This document shows positions 6,767 to 47,828 of a stretch of DNA of 64,000 nucleotides, one piece after another (position 1 is the stretch's first letter; every line of letters starts with the position of its first letter). Position numbers and translations under genes: made by a program. The notes beneath the pieces were generated by a model that worked only from the letters and a program-made list of their open reading frames with translations, was not told where the DNA came from and made no database searches. The DNA lies in NCBI GenBank assembly GCA_021810505.1, contig JAJZIR010000007.1:1-64000 (forward strand). Reading direction: 5' to 3'. The stretch comes from a bacterium (lineage in GTDB: Bacteria > Deinococcota > Deinococci > Deinococcales > Deinococcaceae).

Positions 6767-7483
6767 GTGCCTCTACGACCTATCTGGGGAGCCCCCCCCA
6801 CCTCGCTGCTCTGCCTAGCACCCCACCCCGACGACGCCGAGATCGGTTGCGGCGGCACGCTGGCCCTGATGGCCTCTCAGGGGCAGCGGGTAGGGGTGCT
6901 GGAGCTGACTGCGGGTGAGCTGGGCACGCTGGGGGACCCCGAGACCCGGATAGCCGAAACCCGAGCGGCCGCTCAGGTACTCGGGCTCTCCTGGAGGGGA
7001 AACCTGGGGCTTCCCGACGGCGGCCTGGCGGATCTCCCGGGGGCGGAGCTGGAGCTAGCCCAGGCTCTGCGGGAGCTGCAACCGGGCGTGCTGCTGCTCC
7101 CCCACGCTGAGGACCGTCACCCCGACCACGTCGCGGCGCACCAGCTGGGGCGCCGGGCCGCCCACTTAGCTGGCCTGGCCAAGGCCCCCCTGCAGGGAGC
7201 CCCTTTCCGGGTGCGCCGGCTGCTGTGCTACCCGGGCAACGCACCTGTCCGGGCCGAGCTGCTGGTCGACGTGGGGTCTATGGCCGAGGTCTGGAGGGCG
7301 GCGGTGCTGTGCCACGCCAGCCAGTTTTCTGGCCCGACCGTCTCGGAGACGGTCGGGCCAGAGATCGTCGAGCGGCGCCTAGCCCGGATGATGTACTGGG
7401 GGACCTTCGCTGGGGTGCGCTACGCCGACGCTTTCACCACCCTGGGACCGCTGCTGCTCCGCGCGGAAGCCCTGCTGCCCTGA
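6767..7483 (+). CDS. bshB1: PIG-L family deacetylase, BshB1-like (bacillithiol biosynthesis)
   Basis: 238 residues, the usual length. The zinc-site motif APHPDDAEIGCGG is at residues 18-30, followed by GVLELTAGELGTLGDPETR and NLGLPDG, both characteristic of BshB1. A second metal/active-site motif is HAEDRHPDHVAAHQL, near residue 118. BshB1 removes the acetyl group from GlcNAc-malate during bacillithiol synthesis, and Deinococcota use bacillithiol. Other PIG-L deacetylases are possible, but the GELGTxG motif favours BshB1. Codons for the last 105 residues belong to a 417-bp segment repeated at 8797-9213, and a 35-bp perfect palindrome lies within them. Confidence 0.85.
   Translation: MPLRPIWGAPPTSLLCLAPHPDDAEIGCGGTLALMASQGQRVGVLELTAGELGTLGDPETRIAETRAAAQVLGLSWRGNLGLPDGGLADLPGAELELAQALRELQPGVLLLPHAEDRHPDHVAAHQLGRRAAHLAGLAKAPLQGAPFRVRRLLCYPGNAPVRAELLVDVGSMAEVWRAAVLCHASQFSGPTVSETVGPEIVERRLARMMYWGTFAGVRYADAFTTLGPLLLRAEALLP
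7328..7362. repeat. 35-bp perfect palindrome inside bshB1
   Basis: Two 17-nt arms (TCTGGCCCGACCGTCTC and its complement) surround a single central base. The left copy has G at the centre (7345) and the right copy, at 8958-8992, has C (8975). It encodes SGPTVSETVGPE, and the centre change is synonymous (Ser). Confidence 0.9.
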
Positions 7484-7488
7484 GGCCC

Positions 7489-7583
7489 TCAGCGCCTGCG
7501 GCGGCGCTGCTGGGGGCGGTGATCCCCCCGCCGGCTGCCGCGGAAAAGCTGGGGGCTGACGGCGTCGGAGAGGTCGCCGGGCT
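7489..7583 (-). pseudogene. Duplicated 3' end of rnr
   Basis: These 95 bp are identical to the last 95 bp of the intact rnr gene (9119-9213), including its stop codon. They arose with the 417-bp duplication and have no start of their own. The frame continues into unrelated sequence at 7584. Confidence 0.9.
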
Positions 7584-7677
7584 CTGGACGGGGTTGGTGC
7601 GGGCATCGCCGTCGTCTGGAGGGTGTAGATCATGATGGTGCTCCTCCCCCGCGTGGGTTCTTGGGCGCGACGGGATA

Positions 7678-7689
7678 CCGTCATGACGG
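7678..7689. promoter_or_regulatory. 12-bp palindrome CCGTCATGACGG, probable vapB operator
   Basis: A perfect palindrome centred 15 nt before the -10 box of vapB, where it would cover the -35 region. Ribbon-helix-helix antitoxins commonly repress their own operon through such sites; its use here is inferred. Confidence 0.5.
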
Positions 7690-7697
7690 AATAGTGG

Positions 7698-7703
7698 TAA
7701 ACT
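7698..7703 (+). promoter_or_regulatory. -10 box TAAACT, leaderless start for vapB
   Basis: TAAACT is 6 nt before the ATG at 7710. The imported module therefore carries the same promoter geometry as the host genes. Confidence 0.5.
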
Positions 7704-7709
7704 CAAGTC

Positions 7710-7994
7710 ATGGCAAAGAAAAAGACCACCGTCTACCTCGACTCCGACGTGCTCATGGCGGCGAAGGCTGCTGCGCTCACGTCCAACCAGTCCGAGAGCG
7801 CTGTCATCGAGGCGGCGCTGCGGTCATATCTTCGGAGCGGCCACGGCAATGCAGTGTGGGACAAGCTGGGAGAGCTGCTGGAGCGTGTCGCCTCGACGAG
7901 CAACCTCGACGAGGACGCAGCGCTCGCGCAAGCAGTGACCGAGGTGCGTGCGGTCCGTTGGGAGCGGCGGACACGAACGGTGAGCGGTGGATGA
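7710..7994 (+). CDS. VapB-like ribbon-helix-helix antitoxin
   Basis: 94 residues. The N-terminal half (KKKTTVYLDSDVLMAAKAAA, then SESAVIEAALRSYL) has the beta-strand plus two-helix pattern of ribbon-helix-helix DNA-binding antitoxins. The C-terminal half (VWDKLGELLERVASTSNLDE and the following acidic helix) would wrap the toxin. The stop overlaps the start of the PIN-domain gene by 8 nt, the standard antitoxin-first arrangement. It lies in the 1.2-kb insert between the 417-bp repeats. Expected function is neutralisation of the downstream RNase and autorepression through the palindrome at 7678. Confidence 0.8.
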   Translation: MAKKKTTVYLDSDVLMAAKAAALTSNQSESAVIEAALRSYLRSGHGNAVWDKLGELLERVASTSNLDEDAALAQAVTEVRAVRWERRTRTVSGG

Positions 7995-8417
7995 TCCGCG
8001 TCGGATCGTCTTCGACACGAATGTCTTCGTAGCGGCCGTCACGTCGCGAGAGGGTGTGTCCGCTCGCCTGCTTCTTGCTGCGAAGGCTGGGCGGGTTCAG
8101 TTTGTTGTCTCGCCGTTGCTGATCGACGAGCTGTCGGACGTGCTGGCACGCCCGAAGTTCCGGCGGTATCTGAGCGTCGAGGAGGCGCACGAGTTCGTGG
8201 ATGCGATCCGGGAACTGGTCGTCATCGTGGATGATCCCCCAGAGAGGGACGATCCCATCACTGGTGATCCCGACGACGACTTCCTCGTCCTCCTGGCGGA
8301 GGCGGCGGGTGCTGGCATACTGGTATCGGGGGAGACCCGGACCTCACCGCGGTGAGGCGTCCTGGACTTGTAGTGATGACGCCTCGGGCGTTCCTGGAGG
8401 CCCTGGGCGACGCGTGA
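7987..8417 (+). pseudogene. VapC-like PIN-domain toxin with C-terminal frameshift
   Basis: It begins GTG at 7987, overlapping vapB. The PIN fold is clear: RRIVFDTNVFVAAV (first catalytic Asp), VVSPLLIDELSDVLARPKFRRYL (Glu), and DDPITGDPDDDFLVLLAEA (Asp pair). After GILVSG the frame shifts near 8332 and stops early at 8355. In the shifted frame the missing end is legible (DPDLTAVRRPGLVVMTPRAF) and terminates at 8417, which is the normal family C-terminus. The catalytic carboxylates seen are intact, but the last beta-alpha unit is lost, so activity is doubtful. A single base deletion or two-base insertion explains it; a sequencing error is the alternative. Confidence 0.75.
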
Positions 8418-8474
8418 TCACCGACATCCCGGCAGGGCTCAGCAAGCCCCGCCGGGAGCGGGCCCGGGCGTTAC

Positions 8475-8700
8475 GTCGCCGGGATAGCCGGAGTGCTCTT
8501 CGAGGAGAGTGCCTGGAGCCGGCTGCCGACGATCTCGGTGGTCCGTCGTGTGCTGCCGTCGGTGGTCCGCCACTGGTGGCTCTAGAGCCGACCCTCGATG
8601 TAGGCGAGGCGCCCCTTGCCGAGGTACAGGCGAAGGTGGCGAGCTGGCCCCAGAGGACCACGTCGTGGTCCTCTGGGTGGTTCTTGATGCCGTTCGTGGG
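8475..8700 (-). pseudogene. Single-stranded DNA-binding protein (SSB) remnant
   Basis: On the minus strand, fragments of an SSB OB-fold can be read in order through a frameshift and a stop. These are HDVVLWGQLA (about 8640-8680), then in another frame LYLGKGRLAYIEGRL, a stop, then SHQWRTTDGSTRRTTEIV and GSRLQAL. The spacing and residues (KGR..YIEGRL..W...DG..R..TEIV...LQ.L) are the standard second half of bacterial SSB. The N-terminal third is not recognisable and no start is present. It lies in the foreign insert, opposite in orientation to vapBC, and suggests a plasmid or phage source. The frame breaks are real in the given sequence, so no function is expected. Confidence 0.75.
8651..8675. 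repeat. 25-bp perfect palindrome within the ssb remnant
   Basis: Arms CAGAGGACCACG and CGTGGTCCTCTG flank one central base. It coincides with codons for the PEDHDVVLW stretch of the SSB remnant, so it may be partly a coincidence of codon choice. Confidence 0.6.
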
Positions 8701-8796
8701 GATCGCATTGCCCGCCAGAGTGGGCAAAGGGCGATATGGCGGCTTGTGCTGAAATTTGACGGTGGCACAGTGGCTGTGGGGTGAGGCAACTCAAAC

Positions 8797-9113
8797 TAGC
8801 TGGCCTGGCCAAGGCCCTCCTGCAGGGAGCCCCTTTCCGGGTGCGCCGGCTGCTGTGCTACCCGGGCAACGCACCTGTCCGGGCTGAGCTGCTGGTCGAC
8901 GTGGGGTCTATGGCCGAGGTCTGGAGGGCGGCGGTGCTGTGCCACGCCAGCCAGTTTTCTGGCCCGACCGTCTCCGAGACGGTCGGGCCAGAGATCGTCG
9001 AGCGGCGCCTAGCCCGGATGATGTACTGGGGGACCTTCGCTGGGGTGCGCTACGCCGACGCTTTCACCACCCTGGGACCGCTGCTGCTCCGCGCGGAAGC
9101 CCTGCTGCCCTGA
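8797..9113 (+). pseudogene. Truncated 3' copy of bshB1
   Basis: Encodes the C-terminal 105 residues of the deacetylase (from LAGLAKA to EALLP) without the HPDD zinc motif. One substitution changes Pro to Leu; the other two are synonymous. It has no credible promoter or start and no expected function. Confidence 0.9.
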
Positions 9114-9213
9114 GGCCCTCAGCGCCTGCGGCGGCGCTGCTGGGGGCGGTGATCCCCCCGCCGGCTGCCGCGGAAAAGCTGGGGGCTGACGGCGTCGGAG
9201 AGGTCGCCGGGCT
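8797..9213. repeat. 417-bp direct repeat, right copy
   Basis: Second copy of the bshB1-rnr junction segment, differing from 7167-7583 at three positions. The right copy is continuous with the intact rnr gene and the left copy with the intact bshB1 gene, so both genes survive the insertion. Confidence 0.95.
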
Positions 9214-11890
9214 GAGGAGCCCAGTCGCCGAAGTAGAGCCGCTGGACGGTGACGCTGACCGGCCGCAGGTGCTCGTTCTTGGGCCGCTCCATGGTGACCA
9301 CCCTCCGGGCCTGCGGCGCAGCCGCCTGGGGCTGGGCCCCGGAGTGCTCCCGGCGGGGGTGGCGGGCCGGGTGGTTCCTGGGCTCCTCCGGCCTGGGACC
9401 CCGGGGCTGCGGGCTGGACGCCGGCCGCGGGCCGGCTGGGGCGCCCTGGGTCTGGGCGGGCCGAGCTGTCTGGGTAGCCTGGGCGGGCCGGGCTGTCTGG
9501 GTAGCGGGCTGCCTGGCCGGGGCCGGCTTGCGGTCCCCGGGACGGCGGGCTCTGGGCTTGGGTGTGTCTGCGTTTTTATCCACTGTGGATCCCTCCAGGG
9601 CCAGGTCGATCTGCCTGGCCAGCGGGTTGACTTGGGCGATGACCACCCGGAGCTGGTCTCCTAGGCGGTAGGTGCGGCCGCGGGAACGCCCGCGCAGGAG
9701 CATCGACTCCTCCACGTAAACGTAGTAATCGTCCTGCAGGGCGCTGATGTGCAGCAAACCCTCCACGCCGTTCTCCAAGGCCACGAACAGGCCAAAGCCC
9801 GCCACCCCCGAGACGCGGCCCGAGTAGGCCTCGCTGAGGTGGGCCTGGGCCCACTTGGCCTGGTAGTAGCGGGCCAGGTCGCGCTCGGCGTCGGCAGCGG
9901 CGCGCTCCCGCTCGGAGGTGTGCTCGGCGGCGGCTGGCAGCGCAGCGAACAGGCGCTCGGCCGCGGCCCTGGTCAGCTTGCCGGCCAGGTGCAGCTTGAG
10001 GGCCCGGTGGACCAAGAGGTCCGGATAGCGGCGGATCGGGCTGGTGAAGTGCAGGTATTCGGAGAAGGCCAGGCCGAAGTGGCCGAGGTTGTCCGGGGCG
10101 TAGCGCGCCTGCTTGAGCGAGCGCAGCAGCAGGCGGCTGACCACCGACTCGTGCGGCGTCCCTTGGGCCTGCTTGAGCACGCCCTGGTAGGCGAGGGGGC
10201 TGGGTTGCTCTTCCAAAATCGAGAAGCCGAAACGCTGCATCGCCGCAGCCACGTCCTGGAAGCGCTCCTGGCTGGGCTGCTCGTGCACCCGGAAGAGCGC
10301 CGGTATCCTGTGCTCCAACATGTAGCGGGCGACCGTCCGGTTGGCCAGCAGCATCAGATCCTCGATCAGGCCGCGGGCCGTCTCCTCTCGGATGGGCCTC
10401 AGGTCCAGCTGGCCCCCGGGGCCCACCTCGACCCGGACCTCTCCCAGGTGGAAGTCGAGGCTGCCCTGGTTGAGCCGGTGCTGGTGGAGGCGGGTGGTCA
10501 GCTTGAGCAGCAGGTGGAGGTCTCCCTCCAGCGCCCGCGCCTCAGGGGCCAGGGCCGAGCGCCCCTGGCTGAAATCCTCCACCTGATCGTAGGTCAGCCG
10601 AGCCCGTGAGCGGATCACCGAGGACACGATCCGGCTGCCGACCACCTCGCCGGCCGGCGAGAGCTCGATCAAGGTGCTGAGCGCCAAGCGGTCCTGACCG
10701 GGGACCAGGCTGCCCAAGCCGTTGCTGATCTGCTCAGGCAGCATCGGCAAGACCTTGCCCGGGAGGTAGACGCTGGTGGCGCGCAGGTAGGCCTCGGCGT
10801 CCAGGGCGGATCCCTCGGGGACGAAGTGAGAGACGTCGGCGATGTGCACGCCGACCAGGAAGTGACCGTCCCCTAGGACCTCGATGTGGATGGCGTCGTC
10901 GAAGTCCTTGGCATCTGCGCCGTCCACAGTGAAGACCGCCCGGTCCCGCAGGTCGGTCCGCTTGGGCGAGACCCGCAAGCCCTTGCGGAGCAGCGCGTCC
11001 AGCTCCGGCTGCAGCTCCGGCGGAAACTCGGCGCGCAGGCCGTAGGTCGCGATCACCGCGGCGGTCTCGGTCTCCGGGCTCTCCTGGTCTCCTAAGAGCT
11101 CTTCGACCTCGGCCTCGGCCTCGGCCGAACCGGTCTGCTCCGGCCAGCGCAACCTGGCGATCACCCGGGTGCCGCTCCTAAAGCGCACCCCCTTGCCCAC
11201 CAAGCGCAGCGGGCGGCCGCGGGCCAGGTCGGGGAGCAGCCAGCGCTGGCCGGCCTCTAGGGAGACGGTGCCGACCAGCCGCTCCCGGCCCCGCTTCAGC
11301 ACCGAGACCACCCTGGCCCGCGGCGAGCCGCCGGCCTGCTGGGCCTCTTGCGGCTGGACCAGGACCTGGTCGCCGTCCCAGGCCGAACCGGTGTCCGCGG
11401 GAGCGATGTAGAGGTCCTGGCCACCGCCCAGCGGGATGGCGAAGCCGTAGCCGCTCTGGCCGGAGGAGGCCTGGAAGCGGGCTAGGACCAGGTCGCCGGC
11501 GCGGGCGTAGCGGTCCCCCCCCAAGCCGAGCAGCCACCCCTCCGAGGCCCCAGCGGCGAGCAGGGCCTCCAGCCCTTCCGGGCCGCCGAGCTCGGCCCGC
11601 TCCTCAGGGCTGAGGACCTCCCACAGGGAATCCGCCGAGAACCAGCTGCCTTGGACCCGCGCCAGCAACCGGTCGCGCGGGTCCTCCGGCGCTCTGGGTT
11701 CTGGAGCCCCAAGGTCCTCCGGGCCGGGCCCAGGGGCGCCCTGGGCAGCCAGCCTGGGGAGTGGGCGGCGCTCCGGGAACGACCGCCGGCTCGGCGCGCT
11801 CGGCAGCGAAGGAGCAGTGGGTTTGGAGAGCGCCGTGCCCGGACGGAGCTGAGGCGGCCAAAGGGGGGGAGGTGGGTTCACCATGGGCAC
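9119..11890 (-). CDS. rnr: Ribonuclease R (RNB-domain 3'-5' exoribonuclease)
   Basis: About 923 residues from the first candidate start (GTG 11890; ATG 11884 also possible, no clear Shine-Dalgarno). A Pro-rich N-terminal 70 residues precedes cold-shock/OB domains (SGYGFAIPLGGGQDLYIAP near residue 145). The RNB catalytic core follows (DGADAKDFDDAIH at about 323-335, HFTSPIRRYPDLLVHR further on). An S1 domain (YSGRVSGVAGFGLFVALENG) comes next, then a tail of roughly 165 residues rich in Pro, Arg, Gln and Ala with a repeated ATQTARPAQ unit. It degrades structured RNA. The basic tail is expected to bind RNA or the ribosome, which is inference. It converges with the truncated bshB1 copy, 5 bp apart. 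Confidence 0.93.
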   Translation of the reverse strand: MPMVNPPPPLWPPQLRPGTALSKPTAPSLPSAPSRRSFPERRPLPRLAAQGAPGPGPEDLGAPEPRAPEDPRDRLLARVQGSWFSADSLWEVLSPEERAELGGPEGLEALLAAGASEGWLLGLGGDRYARAGDLVLARFQASSGQSGYGFAIPLGGGQDLYIAPADTGSAWDGDQVLVQPQEAQQAGGSPRARVVSVLKRGRERLVGTVSLEAGQRWLLPDLARGRPLRLVGKGVRFRSGTRVIARLRWPEQTGSAEAEAEVEELLGDQESPETETAAVIATYGLRAEFPPELQPELDALLRKGLRVSPKRTDLRDRAVFTVDGADAKDFDDAIHIEVLGDGHFLVGVHIADVSHFVPEGSALDAEAYLRATSVYLPGKVLPMLPEQISNGLGSLVPGQDRLALSTLIELSPAGEVVGSRIVSSVIRSRARLTYDQVEDFSQGRSALAPEARALEGDLHLLLKLTTRLHQHRLNQGSLDFHLGEVRVEVGPGGQLDLRPIREETARGLIEDLMLLANRTVARYMLEHRIPALFRVHEQPSQERFQDVAAAMQRFGFSILEEQPSPLAYQGVLKQAQGTPHESVVSRLLLRSLKQARYAPDNLGHFGLAFSEYLHFTSPIRRYPDLLVHRALKLHLAGKLTRAAAERLFAALPAAAEHTSERERAAADAERDLARYYQAKWAQAHLSEAYSGRVSGVAGFGLFVALENGVEGLLHISALQDDYYVYVEESMLLRGRSRGRTYRLGDQLRVVIAQVNPLARQIDLALEGSTVDKNADTPKPRARRPGDRKPAPARQPATQTARPAQATQTARPAQTQGAPAGPRPASSPQPRGPRPEEPRNHPARHPRREHSGAQPQAAAPQARRVVTMERPKNEHLRPVSVTVQRLYFGDWAPQPGDLSDAVSPQLFRGSRRGDHRPQQRRRRR

Positions 11891-37923: not shown

Positions 37924-38203
37924 TTGGCGCCGTGATCGCCGAAGATGCGCGCGGCGGTACTGCCGGCGTTGCCGAAGCCCTGCACCGCCACCCTAGCGCC
38001 TTCCAAGCGCAGCCCTCTGCGCTGCATCGCCTCGCTGGCGGTGACGAAAACCCCCCGGCCGGTGGCGTCGCTGCGGCCCATGTTCATGGAGTAGGTGTCC
38101 ATCATCCAGGCCATCACCTGGGGGTTGGTGTTGGCGTCCGGAGCGGGGATATCCTTATCCGGACCGATGAGCAAGCCGATCTCGGTGGTGTAGCGGCGGG
38201 TCA
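37924..38203 (-). pseudogene. Internal fragment of glutamate dehydrogenase (duplicate)
   Basis: 280 bp on the minus strand corresponding to 40692-41028 of the intact gene. There are only about eight substitutions and one 57-bp in-frame deletion. The deletion runs between two GCGGCCCA copies (40841 and 40898) and removes 19 codons ([19 protein letters not shown]). Both ends are abrupt: the left is next to the sulfur operon and the right joins directly to the recombinase remnant at 38203/38204. It lacks start, substrate-domain N-terminus and C-terminus, so it is non-functional. Confidence 0.93.
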
Positions 38204-38692
38204 GCGATCATCGCCCGCTCACCCCAGATCGGCCCGCCGCTGCCGCCGGGCTGGTGGATGACGCGGTAACCGTAAGCGGCCCTGCCGCCGCCGTTCTTGC
38301 CAGCTTCCGCCCGCCCGCGCTGACCTCCGTGTGTCTCGGCGAGGTCCTTGCAGGAGTAAAGCTTCATGTCGGCCCCGCCCCAGGACAAGGTGAGAAACAC
38401 CCGCGAAGCGCAGGTGCTTGAACACGGCGGTCACGTCTTCCTGGTCGCGGCGGACGCGACCCAAAGCTTCGGGCAATACCATACCAAAACGTCCTGTCTG
38501 GGCGCCCGCGAGCAAAGCCTGAATGCCGGGACGGGTCATCGATGGGCCGGAGGCAGCCTGATCGGAGTAAGTTTCCACCACGGCCTAGCTCTCGCGCGCC
38601 GCACGCTCGCGGCACTGGCGCGACTGGTTCCCGCCCCCCACGCCACGCTGGTTTTCGGCGAAATAGCGGGCGTGGGGGGCGACACGGGGCAT
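38204..38692 (-). pseudogene. Serine recombinase (resolvase/invertase family) remnant
   Basis: The minus strand reads MPRVAPHARYFAENQ, a stop, then VVETYSDQAASGPSMTRPG and IQALLAGAQTGRFGMVLPEA, then DQEDVTAVFKHLRFAGVS. After a deletion it continues in another frame: KDLAETHGGQRGRAEAGKNG, GYRVIHQPGG, GERAMIA. This is the large serine-recombinase family common on proteobacterial mobile elements. The catalytic Ser position (normally ARYSS) reads ARYFA, and a stop, a deletion and frameshifts are present. It ends where the glutamate dehydrogenase fragment begins. Confidence 0.85.
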
Positions 38693-38709
38693 GCTGGCTG
38701 GCCCTTCCT

Positions 38710-39269
38710 CTAATCGGTCATTTGCGTTGCCGAACTTTCGTTCCCCGCGATTTCCAGGGCCTTGGCGATGACCCCGAAGGGCAGGATCAGGCTGGGCGGG
38801 CTGCTGTCGAGCAGCTTCATTGCGCCGAAGCGTTCGTACCAGCGCGCCGCCTTGTCATCCTTGGCGTCGATCGCCAGCGCCATCCCGCCGACCTGAGCCG
38901 CCACGGCGAGCGCTCTCGCCCCCGCCGCTAACAGGAGCTCGCCCCCAAGTCCCTGTCTCTGCATCGAAAGCGCCACGGCCAGACGAGCGAGCCGGAACAC
39001 AGCGACCTCATAGCGCCCCAATCCTTTGGTCAGAGCGGCGGGAACTTTTTCGAAAGGATCGAGGCCGGGCTGATGGAGTAGTAGCCGAGAATGATTTTTG
39101 GTGCGGCTACGCCCACCGCGACAAAGGTTTTCGAGCCGCCGCCCCCGTGGTTCTGGCGGGTGTGCCGGCGCAGATAATCATTCAGTTCCTGTGAGTCACA
39201 ACCGAACGCCTTGCGATCATGATCGCGCCTGATGGGTTCTTCCCGCCAATCAAGCACCCTTGTGGCCAA
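38710..39269 (-). pseudogene. TacT-like GNAT acetyltransferase toxin, frameshifted
   Basis: The first part (VLDWREEPIRRDHDRKAFGC, then SQELNDYLRRHTRQNH, VAAPKIILGYYSISPAS) and the second (GRYEVAVFRLARLAVALSMQ, RQGLGGELLLAAGARAL, DKAARWYERFGAMKLL) are consecutive parts of the TacT toxin family. They lie in different frames, joined near 39055 by a one-base change. The acetyl-CoA loop QRQGLGGELL and the catalytic Tyr in RWYERFG are readable. Intact TacT acetylates aminoacyl-tRNA and blocks translation. The start (TTG 39269 or GTG 39257) overlaps the antitoxin stop. As given, it would make only a 79-residue truncated protein. Confidence 0.85.
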
Positions 39270-39557
39270 TTAGCCGCTCTTGGCAACACGGCGGCGCGCG
39301 GCGGCAAGCAGGGCCGGCGTCGGGGCCGGCGGGTTCTCCAGAAGATCGAGCACGCGCAATCCATCCCGCTCCGAGAGCGAGATGGAGATGCGTTCTGTCT
39401 TCCCGACGACATCGCGCGCCGCCGGCAGCACGGTGCGCATGATGAAGCTGGGCACGTCTAACTGCTCATGGGCGGCGGCGTCGGTGAGAAGCTGCTTCTC
39501 GTCCCGCGTGGTGCGCAACTCGATGCGGTCGTCACGGTTAGGTTGTACCTGGGCCAT
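39270..39557 (-). CDS. TacA-like (DUF1778) antitoxin
   Basis: 95 residues. RDDRIELRTTRDEKQLLTDA is the ribbon-helix-helix half, then VPSFIMRTVLPAARDVV. The toxin-wrapping end is RISISLSERDGLRVLDLLEN and PPAPTPALLAAARR. GGAGGGG lies 6 nt before the ATG at 39557. It appears intact while its toxin partner is frameshifted. It is embedded in remnants of a proteobacterial-type mobile element. Confidence 0.85.
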   Translation of the reverse strand: MAQVQPNRDDRIELRTTRDEKQLLTDAAAHEQLDVPSFIMRTVLPAARDVVGKTERISISLSERDGLRVLDLLENPPAPTPALLAAARRRVAKSG

Positions 39558-39575
39558 CGTCATCCCCTCCGCGTA

Positions 39576-39588
39576 CGGATAACATCCG
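39576..39588. promoter_or_regulatory. Inverted repeat CGGATAACATCCG upstream of tacA
   Basis: Five-bp arms with a 3-nt centre, about 18 bp before the antitoxin start. A plausible autoregulatory operator for the TacA antitoxin. Confidence 0.4.
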
Positions 39589-39589
39589 C

Positions 39590-40030
39590 ACTTATTACAC
39601 AGCAAGATGGCGTTTCTTGGTCTGGCTGCTTCGGCACGCTGTCATGGGCGGCGATATGCGCGGCGAAGTCCTCGCGCGCCATGCGGCGGGCCCGTTGCAG
39701 GATGACGGCATCGACCTCACGCAACCTTTCGGGATCAAGGTCGTCCGCGCCGCCATCATCGTTGGCGGCAACGGAACACCCCTCGGGATCGGGCGGGTCA
39801 GCCGGCGCTATGGCTACCCACCAGGCCGCCCGGGTCTTCATCGTCGTTGGCAGCACGCCATCCGACGGGATTGGCGACCCACCAGTTGATGTCGGATGCA
39901 TGCCATCCCGCGCCATTGGCGCTGATCTCGAGCCGGGCAGGGAATGCGCCCTCGGCGATCTTGCGGTAGTCGATTTACAGTTTGACAACCATTCCGTCCA
40001 AGGAACCCACCGAGAAAGCAGCAAGTCCGC
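39590..40030 (-). pseudogene. AlpA-like regulator remnant and short companion frame
   Basis: On the minus strand near 39860-40020 an AlpA-type excisionase/regulator can be read: WLSNCKST, a one-base slip, then YRKIAEGAFPARLEISANGA and GWHASDINWWVANPVGWRAA. Downstream another frame gives DDLDPERLREVDAVILQRAR and MAREDFAAHIAAH, resembling small proteins found next to recombinases on alphaproteobacterial elements. Neither is intact. Together with tacA, tacT and the recombinase, all on one strand, this is the skeleton of a mobile element. Confidence 0.6.
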
Positions 40031-40147
40031 GACAAGATCGACCGCCGCTCGGTAACGGTAGTGTGAACCGCCTCCAGCAAGTGGTTCATAGGCTAGCCAG
40101 CCAGGGCAGCGCTCCGGGGCGGGCAGGGGTCCCCAGCGCGCCGCGGC

Positions 40148-41428
40148 TCAGGGGTAAAGGCCGCGCAGCGCCCGGGCCTCGAGCACTCTGGTGCAGGCCA
40201 CGATGTAGGCGGCGGTCCGGAGGGTGACCCCGTGGCGCTCGGAGACTTCCCAGAGCGCCGTGAAAGCCTCGCGCATCAGGCGATCGAGCCGGGCGTTGAT
40301 CTCGTCCTCGGTCCAGTAGTAGCTGGAGAAGTCCTGGACCCACTCGAAGTAACTCACCGTCACGCCGCCGGCGTTGGCCAGGACGTCCGGAACGACCAGG
40401 GTACCCTGATCGGCCAGGATGTCGTCGGCAGCCGGGGTGGTGGGACCGTTGGCGCCCTCGACCACGATCTTGGCCTGGATCTTCCCGGCGTTCTCGGAGG
40501 TGATCTGCCGCTCCAGCGCCGCTGGGATCAGCACGTCGCAGGGGACCGACCAGAAGTCGGCGCTACCGATCTCGCTTACCCCCGGGGTGGCCCCCAGCTT
40601 GCCTCCGTGCTCGGTAGCCTTGAGGGCCGCCCGGGGGTCGATCCCGTTCTCGGCGTAGATGGTCCCGGTGATGTCCTGAATCGCCACCACCTTGGCGCCG
40701 TGGTCGCTGAAGATGCGCGCGGCGGTGCTGCCGACGTTGCCGAAGCCCTGCACCGCCACCCTAGCGCCTTCCAAGCGCAGCCCCCTGCGCTGCATCGCCT
40801 CGCTGGCGGTGACGAAAACCCCCCGGCCGGTGGCGTCGCTGCGGCCCAAGGAACCCCCTAAGGCCACCGGCTTGCCGGTGACCACCCCGGTGGAGGTGCG
40901 GCCCATGTTCATGGAGTAGGTGTCCATCATCCAGGCCATCACCTGGGGGTTGGTGTTGACGTCCGGAGCGGGAATATCCTTGTCCGGACCGATGAGCAAG
41001 CCGATCTCGGTGGTGTAGCGGCGGGTCAACCGCTCCAGCTCGCCGCTGGACAGGGTGCGCGGATCCACCCGGATGCCGCCCTTGGCGCCGCCGTAGGGCA
41101 GGCCTACCGCCGCGTTCTTGATGGTCATCCAAGCCGAGAGCGCCATCACCTCGGAGAGGTTGACGTCCTGGTGGAAGCGCACCCCGCCCTTGCCCGGACC
41201 CCGGGAGGTGTTGTGGTGGACCCGGTAGCCCTCGAAGTGGGCGACCGAGCCGTCATCCAGATGAATCGGCACGTCCACGATCAGGATCCGCTTGGGGCGC
41301 TTGAGCGATTCGGCCCAGTAAGCCAGGTTGCCCAGGTAGGGGATCACCCGGTCGATCTGCTCCAAAAAGATCTCCCAGGGGCCGAGGTTGTCCTTGCTCA
41401 AGTAGCTGGGTAAGTCGTGATTCTTCAC
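40148..41428 (-). CDS. Glutamate dehydrogenase (second of tandem pair)
   Basis: 426 residues. The substrate domain has [37 protein letters not shown] with the catalytic Lys, and [20 protein letters not shown] with the catalytic Asp. The Rossmann domain has [17 protein letters not shown]. It interconverts glutamate and 2-oxoglutarate plus ammonia. The GTG start at 41428 overlaps the stop of the upstream dehydrogenase (GTGA), so the two are made together. Tandem GdhA/GdhB pairs forming regulated hetero-oligomers are known in Thermus. A 280-bp damaged copy of its middle lies 2.5 kb away. Confidence 0.94.
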
Positions 41429-42684
41429 GGGTAGACTCCTCTCAGGTGGGTAGCTTGGTTGATCCTCTGCATGGCGATGACGTAGGCCGCGGTGCGCAGG
41501 TCGACCCCTAGGCGGTAGGCCTCTCCCAGGACGCTCCCCACCGCCCGCTTCATGTGCGCCTCTAGGGCGCCGCGGATCTCCGCCTCGGTCCAGAAGAAAT
41601 TGCTGGCGTCTTGGACCCACTCGAAGTAGCTCACCGTCACGCCGCCGGCGTTGGCCAAGACGTCCGGAATCACCACCACCCCGCGCTCCTTGAGCAGGTC
41701 GTCGGCCTCGCGGCTCAGCGCCGCGTTGGCTCCCTCCAAGACGAAGCGGGCTCGGACCTGATCGGCGTTGCCGGCGTGGAGCATCTTGCTGTCCACCGCC
41801 GGGAGCAGCACTTCGGCCTCCAGGCCCAGCAGGGCCTCCTGGGGGAGGTGCTCTGCGGGAAAACCCTGCAGCGCGCCGGTCTTCTGCTTGTGCGCCAGCA
41901 CCGCCGGGACATCCAGCCCGGAAGCCGCGTGGAGGCCGGTGCTGGAATCGCTGAGCGCTACGACCTTGGCTCCTAGCTCATGGAAGGCCAGCGCGGCGTG
42001 TCGTCCCAGGTTGCCGAAACCCATGACCGCCACCCTGGCGCCGGCTAGGTCCTGGCCGTACGCCGGCAGGACCCGGGCGGCCGCGTAGGCCGCGCCCCGG
42101 CCGGAAGCCTGCTTGCGGCCCAGAGAACCCCCCAAGGCCACCGGCTTGCCGGTGACCACCCCGGCGTTGGTGGTGCCGCGGTTCTCGCTGTAGGTGTCCA
42201 GGATCCAGGCCATCACCTGCTCGTCGGTACCCAGGTCCGGCGCCAGCACGTCCTTATCCGGGCCGATCAGGTCGAGCAGCTCGCTGGTGTAGCGGCGGGT
42301 CAGCCGCTCCAGCTCGCCCCTGGAGAGCTGCTTGGGGTCGACATCGACCCCGCCCTTGGCCCCGCCGAAGGGCAGGTCCATCACCGCACACTTGACCGTC
42401 ATCAGGGCGGCCAAGGTCTCCACCTCTTCCAGGCTGAGGCCGGGCTTGTAGCGGACCCCGCCCTTGGCCGGGCCCCTGGCGATGGAGTGCACCGTCCGAA
42501 AGCCCCGGAATACCTGCACTGCGCCGCTATCTAAGTCGACCGGCAGGGAGAGGATGACGCTGCGCTTGGGAAAGCGGAAGTAAGCCGCTGAAACGGGATC
42601 GGCGCCGCTGAACTCTAAGGTCCTCTCGACGAAGGCCAAAAAATCCTTCCCGCTGATGCGCTGCGGGTCCGGGGGAGCTTCCAT
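41425..42684 (-). CDS. Glutamate dehydrogenase paralogue (first of tandem pair)
   Basis: 419 residues from the ATG at 42684, which has AGGAGG 6 nt upstream. [40 protein letters not shown] and [19 protein letters not shown] retain the catalytic Lys and Asp. The other paralogue's GGVRFH reads GGVRYK here, so the substrate site differs. NAD-domain [17 protein letters not shown]. By analogy with Thermus one subunit may be mainly regulatory; which one cannot be decided from sequence alone. Confidence 0.92.
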
Positions 42685-44426: not shown

Positions 44427-44888
44427 ATGCGCCGAATGTCTGGAGGCTTCACCCTCATCGAGCTGTTGATCGTCATCGCGATCATCGGGATCCTGGCCGC
44501 CGTGCTGATCCCCAACCTGCTCAACGCCCGCAACCTGGCCATCAAGCGGGCGGCCCAGGCCTACAGCTCCAACGTCGACTTGGTCCTAGCCGCCGCGCTG
44601 AGCGGCAACTCTCAGCTCTCGGTCTCGGACGTCACCGCCAGCAACCTGGGGCTGGGTTCCAGCAAGGGCTGCGGGCCCAAGGGCAACTCGGGGGCGGCGG
44701 TCTCGCAGCTGGTCTTCAGCAGCGTGGCCGCGACCGGCGCCTCGCTGACCACCAACTTCGGCTGGGGCCCGGCCCCGACCGACGTCACCGACTGCACCAT
44801 CTCGACCGACAAGGCTACCGGCGAGATCAGCGTCAGCGTGGTCACCAAAATCGGCCCCAGCATATTCGTCAACGGGGTCAGCCAGTAG
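44427..44888 (+). CDS. Type IV major pilin (PilA-like), copy 1
   Basis: 153 residues. The short leader MRRMSGG is cut by prepilin peptidase before FTLIELLIVIAIIGILAAVL; Glu5 of the mature protein is present. The helix continues to about residue 55 (NLLNARNLAIKRAAQAYSSN). The globular part has two Cys (SSKGCGPKG and DVTDCTIS) that can form the C-terminal disulfide loop. It is assembled into pili for adhesion, motility or DNA uptake by the pilM-Q machinery in this window. AGGGGGA precedes the ATG. Shares its first 50 residues and its C-terminus with copy 2. Confidence 0.95.
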   Translation: MRRMSGGFTLIELLIVIAIIGILAAVLIPNLLNARNLAIKRAAQAYSSNVDLVLAAALSGNSQLSVSDVTASNLGLGSSKGCGPKGNSGAAVSQLVFSSVAATGASLTTNFGWGPAPTDVTDCTISTDKATGEISVSVVTKIGPSIFVNGVSQ

Positions 44889-44950
44889 CGGCGGGGCAAG
44901 CTCGGTGGCTCTTAGAGCCGAGGGGCTGCGGGCGCAGAGCGTACAAGGGT

Positions 44951-45097
44951 TATTCTGGAAATATGCAAGGGCCGCCGCCTCAGTTCGGTCCGCCGCGCGC
45001 GCGGCTGCAAATCCGCCCTCCAGGAAGGCTAGCCGGGGACAGTGCCCTTGGGGAACAGCCGCCCTGCCGAGAGGCGGGAGGTGCGCGTTGGCGCTAG
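44951..45097 (+). other. Possible leaderless small ORF ahead of the HEPN gene
   Basis: TATTCT (44951-44956) lies 6 nt before an ATG at 44963 that opens a 44-codon frame (MQGPPPQFGPPRARL and onwards) ending at 45097, overlapping the HEPN start at 45088. The spacing matches leaderless genes in this window, but the peptide is Pro/Arg-rich and resembles nothing known. It may be a leader peptide or chance; the -10 alone may serve the HEPN gene. Confidence 0.3.
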
Positions 45098-45513
45098 ACA
45101 CCGGACCCTTTGAAAGGGCGATCGCTCGCTTAGCCGAGGGGATCGCTCGCTACCAGCGCGATCCCGCGGACGCACAGATCCGTGACGGCCTCATCCAGAG
45201 GTTCGAGTTCACCTACGACTTGGCCGTCAAGACCTTGCAGCGCTTCCTCGAAATGTCGCTCCCGGCCTTCGGAACAACGCCCTACTTGGACTTCCAAGAC
45301 CTGATCCGGTCGGCCAATGCCCAAGGTCTGCTGCCCGGAGATTGGCCGCTGTGGAGGGGTTACCGGGAGATGCGGAACAGGGCCAGCCATACCTACGACG
45401 AGGACCAAGCTTTGCAGGTAGTAGCCGGTATCCCGGCGTTCCTGTCGGAGGTTAGCTCGCTGCGGGAGCGGATCAGGCACCGCCTGGCTGGGAGCGCGGG
45501 GTGCTCCAGGTAA
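45088..45513 (+). CDS. HEPN-domain toxin-type protein (HI0074-like)
   Basis: 141 residues from a TTG start with GGGAGG 6 nt upstream. RDGLIQRFEFTYDLAVKTLQ and the core WPLWRGYREMRNRASHTYDE contain the Rx4H motif (RNRASH) of minimal HEPN RNases. The family pairs with a minimal nucleotidyltransferase (MNT) that modifies and silences it. The pair is present: the MNT frame begins at 45501, overlapping by 13 nt. Here the HEPN gene is open throughout while MNT is broken. Confidence 0.88.
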   Translation: MALDTGPFERAIARLAEGIARYQRDPADAQIRDGLIQRFEFTYDLAVKTLQRFLEMSLPAFGTTPYLDFQDLIRSANAQGLLPGDWPLWRGYREMRNRASHTYDEDQALQVVAGIPAFLSEVSSLRERIRHRLAGSAGCSR

Positions 45514-45825
45514 ACCCAGGTCAGCGGGAAATCGTCCAGGGCGTCCTGCGGCAGCATGTCCCGCGGGATAGCCTGGGCCTTCGGCTCGCGGGTCCAGGGG
45601 ACCGCGCGGCCTTATTCCGACCTCGACCTGGTCGTGATCGCCGGGACGCCGCTACCGCTCACGGCGCTCGCGGCCCTAGCAGACGACTTTTCCAGGTCGG
45701 ATCTCCCCTGGAAGGTGGACGTCTGGGGTTGGGCAACCACCGGTGAAGCCGGGCTGTCATCGCCCGCGACTAAGGTGGTGCTGCAGGGGAGCAGGGAGGG
45801 CCGCATGGGAGCTGCCGGCGGGTAG
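45501..45825 (+). pseudogene. Minimal nucleotidyltransferase (MNT) antitoxin, frameshifted
   Basis: Consecutive pieces of an MNT protein are readable in different frames. QREIVQGVLRQHVP (frame of 45501) is followed by GIAWAFGSRVQGTARPYSDL and DLVVIAG with the GSR..D.D catalytic motif. Then come DLPWKVDVWGWATT, RAVIARD and KVVLQG, each after another slip. At least three indels are needed (near 45565, 45751 and 45770). The catalytic Gly-Ser and Asp pair survive in the middle frame but no full-length product can be made. The family partner is the HEPN protein just upstream. Confidence 0.82.
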
Positions 45826-46197
45826 CCCCGGTCAGGCGCGGTGGCTCTGGACCGAACCGGGAGCAGCCCGCGGCCGAGACCTCCGCGACCGCCCGCTGGG
45901 ACCGGCGGCGCCGGATTCAGTCGGCCGGGCCGAGAGGGCGCCGCGGCCCTGGGCAACTGCCCTACCCACGGAGCCTTCTGGGCGGCAGCTCGCGCATCCC
46001 AGGCGGCAGCGGCGGTCCCCGGAGCGCGGCCGGGCAGAAAATCCATGGCGGGGGCCGCCCGCGTCCCCGAGGGAGGCGAGCCGGCGCCCGAAGGCCTACC
46101 GCCCCAGGGACCCAGCGAGGCGCCCCGCTCCAGCTACCCAGCCGGGCCGAACATTTTCCCAGCCCCCTGGCCGGTAAGCTTGAACCCGGAGGTGACC
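45826..46197. other. Intergenic region, about 370 bp, no gene recognised
   Basis: GC-rich with no family-like frame on either strand. It follows the broken MNT gene and may be decayed sequence. GGAGG at 46188-46192 serves the next gene. Confidence 0.45.
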
Positions 46198-47298
46198 GTG
46201 ACTCAGCCCAACCCACTCACCAGCTCCCAGCTGGAATCGCTCTGCCGGGGCGTGGCCAGCCGGGCGGCCGCCGCCGACCGCGAGGGGCGCGTCCCCGAGG
46301 CGGACCTAGAGGCGCTCCGGGGATCCGGCTACCTGCTGCTCTCCCTGCCCAGCCGCCTAGGCGGCTTAGGGGCTGACCTGAGCGCCTGCACGCAGGCCCA
46401 GCTCGAGTTGGCCGCGGCCAGCACCTCGACCGCGCTGGTCGCGGCCATGCCGCTGCAGCTCTTCGGCCACGCCGCCGAGGCCGGGTCCTGGAGCGAGCGG
46501 AGCTTAGAAAAGCTGGCCGCGCTGGCCCGGGAAGGAGCCCTGATCAACGCCGCCGCCAGCGAGCCGGATCTGGGCAGCCCCTCGCGCGGCGGCCTGCCGG
46601 ACACCTATCTGGAGCGGACCGGGAGCGGGTTTCGCCTGAGCGGCCAGAAGTCCTGGACCACCGGCGGCCCCAGGCTGACCCACCTGATCGTCCGGGCCCG
46701 CCTGGAGGATCAGGTGGTCAACGCCCTAGTCCCCAACCACCTGCCCGGTATCACCTGGGATCAGGAGTGGCCGGGCAGCCTGGCCCTGCGCGCCTCGGAG
46801 AGCCGCAGCGTCCGCTTTGAAGCGGTGGAGCTGCCGCGGGACGCCCTGGTGGAGCCGGGACCGGGGGGCGGAGAGCGCAACCGCTGGTTCCCGGCCCTGA
46901 TCGCCGCGACCTACTTAGGGACCGGCCTAGGCGCCTACCGGGCCGCGCTGGACTACGCCCGCTCCCGGGTTCCCACCGCGCTGGGACGGCCTATCGCCAC
47001 CCTGCCGGCCATCCAGCGCCAGATCGGGGAGATGGGGATCCGCCTGGAAGCGGCCAAGACCCTGCTGGGCCGGGCCGCAGCCGGCAGCTACCCGGAGGTA
47101 GTGGCCGCCAAGTACCTGGCCACCGAGGCGGCTTTGGGGATCACCGAGCTGGCCCTGAGCGCGGTGGGGGGCGCCGCGGTCAGCCCGGAGCTGCCCTTCG
47201 AGCGCTACTTCCGCGACGCCCGGGGCGGCCGGATGCACCCGCCCTCCGGGGACGCGGCGCTGGAGCTGGTGGGCAAGGAAGCTCTGGGCGCGGTGTAA
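46198..47298 (+). CDS. Acyl-CoA dehydrogenase-family flavoprotein
   Basis: 366 residues from a GTG with GGAGG 5 nt upstream. GYLLLSLPSRLGGLGADLSA, GALINAAASEPDLGSPSRGG, GFRLSGQKSWTTGG (flavin-contacting loop) and LPAIQRQIGEMGIRLEAAKT follow the family order. The terminal helices (SAVGGAAVSPELPFERYFRD and GGRMHPPSGD) resemble the DszC/monooxygenase-like branch. It could oxidise an acyl-CoA or act as a flavin-dependent monooxygenase. Its TAA stop lies inside the first GTAAGAA operator repeat of the second pilin gene. Confidence 0.85.
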   Translation: MTQPNPLTSSQLESLCRGVASRAAAADREGRVPEADLEALRGSGYLLLSLPSRLGGLGADLSACTQAQLELAAASTSTALVAAMPLQLFGHAAEAGSWSERSLEKLAALAREGALINAAASEPDLGSPSRGGLPDTYLERTGSGFRLSGQKSWTTGGPRLTHLIVRARLEDQVVNALVPNHLPGITWDQEWPGSLALRASESRSVRFEAVELPRDALVEPGPGGGERNRWFPALIAATYLGTGLGAYRAALDYARSRVPTALGRPIATLPAIQRQIGEMGIRLEAAKTLLGRAAAGSYPEVVAAKYLATEAALGITELALSAVGGAAVSPELPFERYFRDARGGRMHPPSGDAALELVGKEALGAV

Positions 47299-47312
47299 GA
47301 ACGCTGTAAGAA
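47295..47312 (+). promoter_or_regulatory. Tandem GTAAGAA repeats (11-bp period) upstream of second pilin gene
   Basis: GTAAGAA at 47295 and 47306, 9 bp before CAGAAT (47322-47327), with TGGGCA in between. The first repeat contains the stop codon of the upstream gene. Same architecture as 44351-44368. Confidence 0.65.
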
Positions 47313-47378
47313 AACACTGGGCAGAATAAACCTGCGCGTGGAAGAACTCGGGGACCCCGGGCACCGCAGGAGGATTTC

Positions 47379-47828
47379 ATGAAGAACCGCGTCCAGCAAG
47401 GTTTCACCCTCATCGAGCTGCTGATCGTCATCGCGATCATCGGCATCCTCGCCGCCGTCCTGATCCCCAACCTGCTCAACGCCCGCAACCTGGCCATCAA
47501 GCGCGCCGCCCAGGCCTACAGCTCCAACGTCGACACCGCCCTGACCGCGGCGCTGAGCGGGGACTCCCAGCTGTCGCCCAGCGACTTCTACAACGGCAAC
47601 CTGGCGGGACTTACTACTTCAGGCTGCGGAACCGGCACCAACGGGACCGGCGCGGTCAGCCAGATCACCTTCACTTCCCCCGCCATCACCGCCAACTTCG
47701 GCTGGGGCCCGGCGCCGGCCGATATCAGCAGCTGCATCATCAGCGGTGACACCACCACCGGCACCATCAGCGTCAGCGTGATCACCTCCATCGGCCCCAC
47801 CACCTACGTCAACGGCGTAGCGCAGTAA
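47379..47828 (+). CDS. pilA: Type IV major pilin (PilA-like), copy 2
   Basis: 149 residues. Leader MKNRVQQG, then mature FTLIELLIVIAIIGILAAVL, identical to copy 1 through the N-terminal helix. The globular part differs in the middle (SPSDFYNGNLAGLTTSGCGT) and returns to similarity at ANFGWGPAP and VITSIGPTTYVNGVAQ. Cys pair in TTSGCGTG and ISSCII. Strong Shine-Dalgarno CAGGAGG. A terminator follows directly, so it is monocistronic. Probably the principal pilin given the better ribosome-binding site, which is inference. Confidence 0.95.
   Translation: MKNRVQQGFTLIELLIVIAIIGILAAVLIPNLLNARNLAIKRAAQAYSSNVDTALTAALSGDSQLSPSDFYNGNLAGLTTSGCGTGTNGTGAVSQITFTSPAITANFGWGPAPADISSCIISGDTTTGTISVSVITSIGPTTYVNGVAQ

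Follow-up and report, generated by a model that had tools for sequence, protein, structure and literature searches.

In non-competent Escherichia coli, linear DNA that has homology at one end is mostly recircularised and integrates by a single crossover, which leaves duplications of 109-950 bp (PMC3240628). Homology-facilitated illegitimate recombination (HFIR) inserts about 1 kb of foreign DNA by one homologous and one illegitimate joint, leaving 3-10 bp of microhomology and usually replacing and deleting host DNA (PMC3240628). In pneumococcus, merodiploids produced by transformation carry duplications of 100-900 kb that arise by repeat-mediated unequal crossing-over (PMC3784515). As for the possible cargo of such events, VapBC modules consist of an RHH-type antitoxin gene overlapping a PIN-domain gene.

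Here, we describe a locus in the genome of an uncultured bacterium of the Deinococcota (G000; 2.31 Mb, 26 contigs, completeness 97.9%) where foreign DNA is inserted between two copies of a chromosomal gene junction. Like the E. coli integrants, it combines a foreign insert with a direct target duplication of the same size range, in a bacterium that is probably not competent. In E. coli, however, homology was engineered on the incoming plasmid, while here neither the source of homology nor a circle was found. A foreign insertion of about 1 kb with an illegitimate joint is shared with HFIR, but the host DNA is duplicated rather than lost, and there are two illegitimate joints. Similarly to the pneumococcal merodiploids, a tandem duplication is coupled to foreign DNA, although it is far from 100-900 kb and the host has no detectable competence genes. 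Finally, the antitoxin and PIN genes of the insert overlap as in VapBC modules, but the PIN gene is frameshifted and the Pfam scores of the antitoxin are below the cut-offs.

The analysed stretch (the window) covers the initial 64 kb of contig C26, whose length is 123,879 bp. SecA encoded on this contig scores 1196 bits against the protein of PDB entry 2ipc, that of Thermus thermophilus, and at most 745 bits against the other SecA proteins; together with the bacillithiol-type bshB1, this suggests that the host belongs to Deinococcota. The comparison set contained three genomes from the same family, with the genus represented by G000 alone.

Duplicated junction of bshB1 and rnr

The segments 7167-7583 and 8797-9213 are 99.28% identical over 417 bp, and the 1213 bp between them (7584-8796) form the insert. 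Both the duplication with its three differences and the length of the insert agree to the base with the preliminary description of the locus. Chance cannot account for a match of 417 bp. The copies differ at 7188 C/8818 T, 7255 C/8885 T, and 7345 G/8975 C, and the last 238 bp are the same in both. Within the window and ∼353 kb sampled elsewhere in the genome, we found no second pair of separated, near-identical copies like this one. The sampled ∼353 kb hold no other insert with a duplication, and no further example was found in ∼18% of the genome.

The repeat is the common 3' junction of two convergent genes, bshB1 and rnr. On the forward strand, the bshB1-like gene encodes a PIG-L deacetylase of 238 aa (6767-7483; PF02585, E 5e-26), and its 3' 317 bp fall within the left copy. 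On the reverse strand, rnr encodes RNase R (9119-11890; PF00773, E 8e-107), and its 3' 95 bp fall within the right copy. The deacetylase aligns over the full length with 11 relatives, and RNase R is 55% identical to that of the same-family genome G001 over residues 39-908. Hence, both genes are intact, bshB1 owing its 3' end to the left copy and rnr to the right one, as had been suggested. In the right copy, bshB1 remains only as an N-terminally truncated ORF of 110 aa (8781-9113). None of the relatives examined has rnr within 1.5 kb of bshB1; in G001, the two genes are on separate contigs (C9 for bshB1, C3 for rnr).

The T at 8818 replaces proline by leucine in the truncated right copy. As relatives carry Pro, Ala, or Asp at this position, the left copy is ancestral at this site, and the leucine fits the free drift expected of a truncated bshB1 fragment. 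The remaining two of the three differences are silent in bshB1. We also observed a 35-nt palindrome in bshB1 (7328-7362 and 8958-8992, coding for SGPTVSETVGPE), perfect except for the single centre base. At the centre, one copy has G where the other has C, and the two palindromes are therefore exact reverse complements, a pattern expected from either a single substitution or the inversion of a hairpin.

Repeats were also seen at other places. In the window, 37924-42479 and 44444-47827 contain further diverged direct repeats with the identity of 68-80%, probably paralogous genes. On contig C7 (L115), a small gene is present in two 231-bp tandem copies that are 100% identical (9419-9649 and 9659-9889); its product has a signal-peptide-like start and three units LPSNDGWITIE, and resembles a secreted repeat peptide or a pheromone precursor.

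The duplication could also have been created by the assembler. The chromosome would then be uninterrupted (A-B-C, with B the junction), the insert and B would form a separate circle, and a short-read assembler would have walked this loop once. On contig C2, a 10-N scaffold gap splits a tandem repeat (L110, 1305-1753), pointing to a SPAdes-type short-read assembly, and as the final 238 bp of the copies are identical, the path could presumably be fixed by read pairs only. An intact chromosome with a separate circle would yield the same graph. However, each junction has to be present in actual molecules under either scenario, the copies are phased by their three differences, and the 1630-bp circle would have no replication gene, all of which makes such an artefact improbable.

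Composition and origin of the insert

The insert has Actinomycetes homology from 7583/7584 onwards; it starts within a donor gene, referred to below as gene X, and runs into vapB, vapC, and ssb. The close relatives of the PIN protein come from Actinomycetes metagenome bins (84% for JA1.bin20, 71% for TL1-2.bin40, and others). At the DNA level, the best match is again JA1.bin20 (L026/L097), with 84.8% identity over 7671-8679, compared with 67-87% for parts of the block in at least 10 further genomes of the same order. Altogether, a single order of Actinomycetes supplied at least 11 genomes with the vapB-vapC-ssb block, those named being metagenome bins. Relative to L097, the insert has two internal deletions of ∼43 and ∼170 bp. 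Homology to this actinobacterial block identifies 7584-8704 as foreign, which agrees with the origin proposed earlier. The GC content of the insert is 64.8% versus 68.4% in the window and by itself is not an outlier, while the tetranucleotide profile is within the most deviant ∼2% of windows.

The first element of the insert is a 5' piece of gene X on the reverse strand (7584-7640), which lacks a few internal bases when compared with L097; this head of the insert aligns to L097, L075, L077, and L078. Gene X has no match in Pfam (donor L026:4208-4571). Since the donor homology begins inside a gene, the left end of the fragment appears to be arbitrary.

It is followed on the forward strand by an open vapB-like gene of a ribbon-helix-helix antitoxin (7710-7994; 94 aa, 88% identity to L026), whose Pfam matches (RHH, VapB, CcdA) are all under the curated cut-offs, and by a vapC-like gene of a PIN-domain toxin (7987-8355; PF13470, E 5e-19), encoding 122 aa against 142 aa in the homologue. 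Compared with L026 and L097, vapC is frameshifted near the C-terminus, at SGDPDL of the homologues, and has no intact frame with all acidic PIN residues. The frame past this point is still open and homologue-like, and hence the lesion looks young. Before the frameshift, dN/dS relative to L097 is ∼0.29 (0.076/0.261), which indicates that the gene was under purifying selection in its former setting. Thus, the VapBC-like pair noted in the preliminary description is present, but because of the frameshift in vapC it is probably no working toxin-antitoxin module. By the same reading of the gene, a toxin-antitoxin role in retaining the insert is now unlikely.

The ssb remnant (8439-8704, reverse strand) is frameshifted and lacks the N-terminus. 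It had been recognised before and is real: it matches DNA of L077 and L078 at 82% up to 8704, and of L097 up to 8679, and the corresponding donor ORF belongs to PF00436 (SSB). The remnant contains a near-perfect 29-nt palindrome (8649-8677, with the CCAGAGGACCACGTCGTGGTCCTCTGG core), the right half of which is absent from the donor loci.

For the 92 bp at the right end of the insert (8705-8796), the source was not found. There was no match in plasmids or the host's own class, and nothing above chance level in viral contigs and 298 genomes of the donor order. The predicted fold of this tail is no better than that of shuffled sequences, and the idea that it derives from the end of an IS21 element found no support. 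A search of Rfam yielded no match.

In the donors, genes encoding ArdC, a MerR regulator, and IS21 proteins lie near some copies of the block, which suggests that it is part of the mobile or variable gene content of these bacteria. L077 and L078 have gene X and ssb without vapBC, whereas in L097 and L075 vapBC lies between the same two genes, and so vapBC may move as a cassette among these loci. The names of the donor bins resemble those of bins from acid mine drainage. A survey of acid mine drainage sites reports both Actinobacteriota and Deinococcota (PMC9734747). Together, the bin names and the survey suggest acid mine drainage as a possible habitat of the donors.

Mobile elements, circles, and competence

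We searched for traces of a mobile element in the insert. There are no terminal inverted repeats at 7584/8796, the end-to-end inverted match being reached by 97% of shuffles, and no gene for an integrase, a transposase, or another recombinase or mobility function is found in the insert. Together with the arbitrary left end and the length of the duplication, this argues against insertion of a transposon or an IS, and bears out the initial view that the duplication is not a transposon target duplication.

A decayed transposon, an integron cassette, or an integrative element that left a long duplication of att or of the target might be suspected for other reasons. Neither host gene is disrupted, much as when an integrase rebuilds a 3' end; the donors have gene X and ssb either with or without vapBC in between, and so the pair may itself be a cassette there; and IS21 genes are found near one donor copy (L135). 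Still, an element of this kind is hardly credible: inverted repeats and a recombinase are lacking, and the left end interrupts gene X of the donors. Usual target or att duplications are, moreover, far shorter than 417 bp.

Long direct repeats of the target with both genes complete are precisely what one crossover would leave behind. A Campbell-type integration would involve a 1630-bp circle, comprised of the 417-bp junction from the host or a sister strain and the foreign fragment, and one RecA-dependent crossover in the junction. RecA is present in G000, E. coli provides the precedent with duplications of a similar length (PMC3240628), and all three differences between the copies would be explained at once if the copy on the circle came from another strain. 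Against it, the DNA introduced in the E. coli experiment had been designed to carry the homology. A circular or plasmid form with vapBC, ssb, and the junction, anticipated in the preliminary description, was not found among 72,556 plasmids, 50,697 phages, and viral contigs, which is weak evidence of absence; the viral contigs had no match to VapC or to either of the two junctions. In addition, this route is less economical, as a crossover and a free host fragment come on top of the two illegitimate joins. We consider it a serious possibility, though not the leading one.

Natural transformation could also have delivered the fragment, either by HFIR or by forming a merodiploid. ComEC was detected in 19 of 20 further genomes, and the one without it is 58% complete; counted over well-sampled relatives, 18 of 19 have the gene. 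Nearly all of the relatives searched thus carry it. In contrast, neither ComEC nor DprA was detected in G000 at its completeness of 97.9%, which makes transformation unlikely and a lineage-specific loss of natural competence probable. The outcome does not fit either, since HFIR usually removes host DNA that here is doubled, and merodiploid duplications (PMC3784515) are hundreds of kilobases long. Overall, a transformation origin is highly unlikely.

Proposed joining of overlapping ends around foreign DNA

Only two junctions are new at this locus, 7583/7584 and 8796/8797, and no target sequence is lost. It was produced by two illegitimate joins, and both end-joining and a single-crossover circle fit. 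The earlier proposal, which named a circle integrating by one crossover and a duplication left by break repair, fares accordingly: both alternatives are compatible with the data, and neither is singled out. The sequence cannot decide between the two, but we slightly favour end-joining, as it is more economical, requiring two joins rather than two joins and a crossover.

We tentatively suggest that the structure arose by joining of sister ends around a captured actinobacterial fragment. A piece of actinobacterial mobile-element DNA, consisting of the start of gene X, vapBC, and part of ssb, would have entered a Deinococcota cell. One copy of the chromosome would have been broken at 7583 and the sister copy at 7167, yielding ends that overlap in the bshB1-rnr junction, and the fragment would have been joined between both ends without sequence specificity. 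Such a single repair event, with only two end joins, would give A-B-insert-B-C with no gene lost. The Pro-to-Leu change in the truncated copy of bshB1 would have followed later, while vapC could have acquired its frameshift at some point before or after the capture. We infer the sister-copy origin of the ends, and that they were end-joined rather than brought on a circle.

At the left join, no overlap between host and donor sequences is visible, with the donors only ∼80% alike there, and thus the join looks blunt or near-blunt. Ku, by which a product of bacterial non-homologous end joining would be recognised, had no match in G000; classical bacterial end-joining is therefore absent, and an alternative route has to be assumed. 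Further points count against end-joining. The right join is unreadable, as the source of 8705-8796 was not found, and there is no second example in the sampled part of the genome. In its full form, that is, a bacterium with neither Ku nor competence genes joining overlapping sister ends around a foreign filler with no gene lost, the scenario is rather unlikely.

Implications

The event is real, the DNA is foreign, and the event is of a known kind in a new place; the trace is clean but mechanistically ordinary. It is a well-preserved natural case of foreign DNA in a chromosome across phyla, with neither a mobile-element enzyme nor gene loss, and deletion between the repeats is expected to erase such traces. 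Scraps of actinobacterial vapBC-ssb DNA thus reach Deinococcota that probably lost natural transformation, and because of this loss another entry route is needed. If the joining of sister ends around the fragment is true, it would constitute a route of horizontal transfer by gain without loss, perhaps aided by the multi-copy genomes of Deinococcota.
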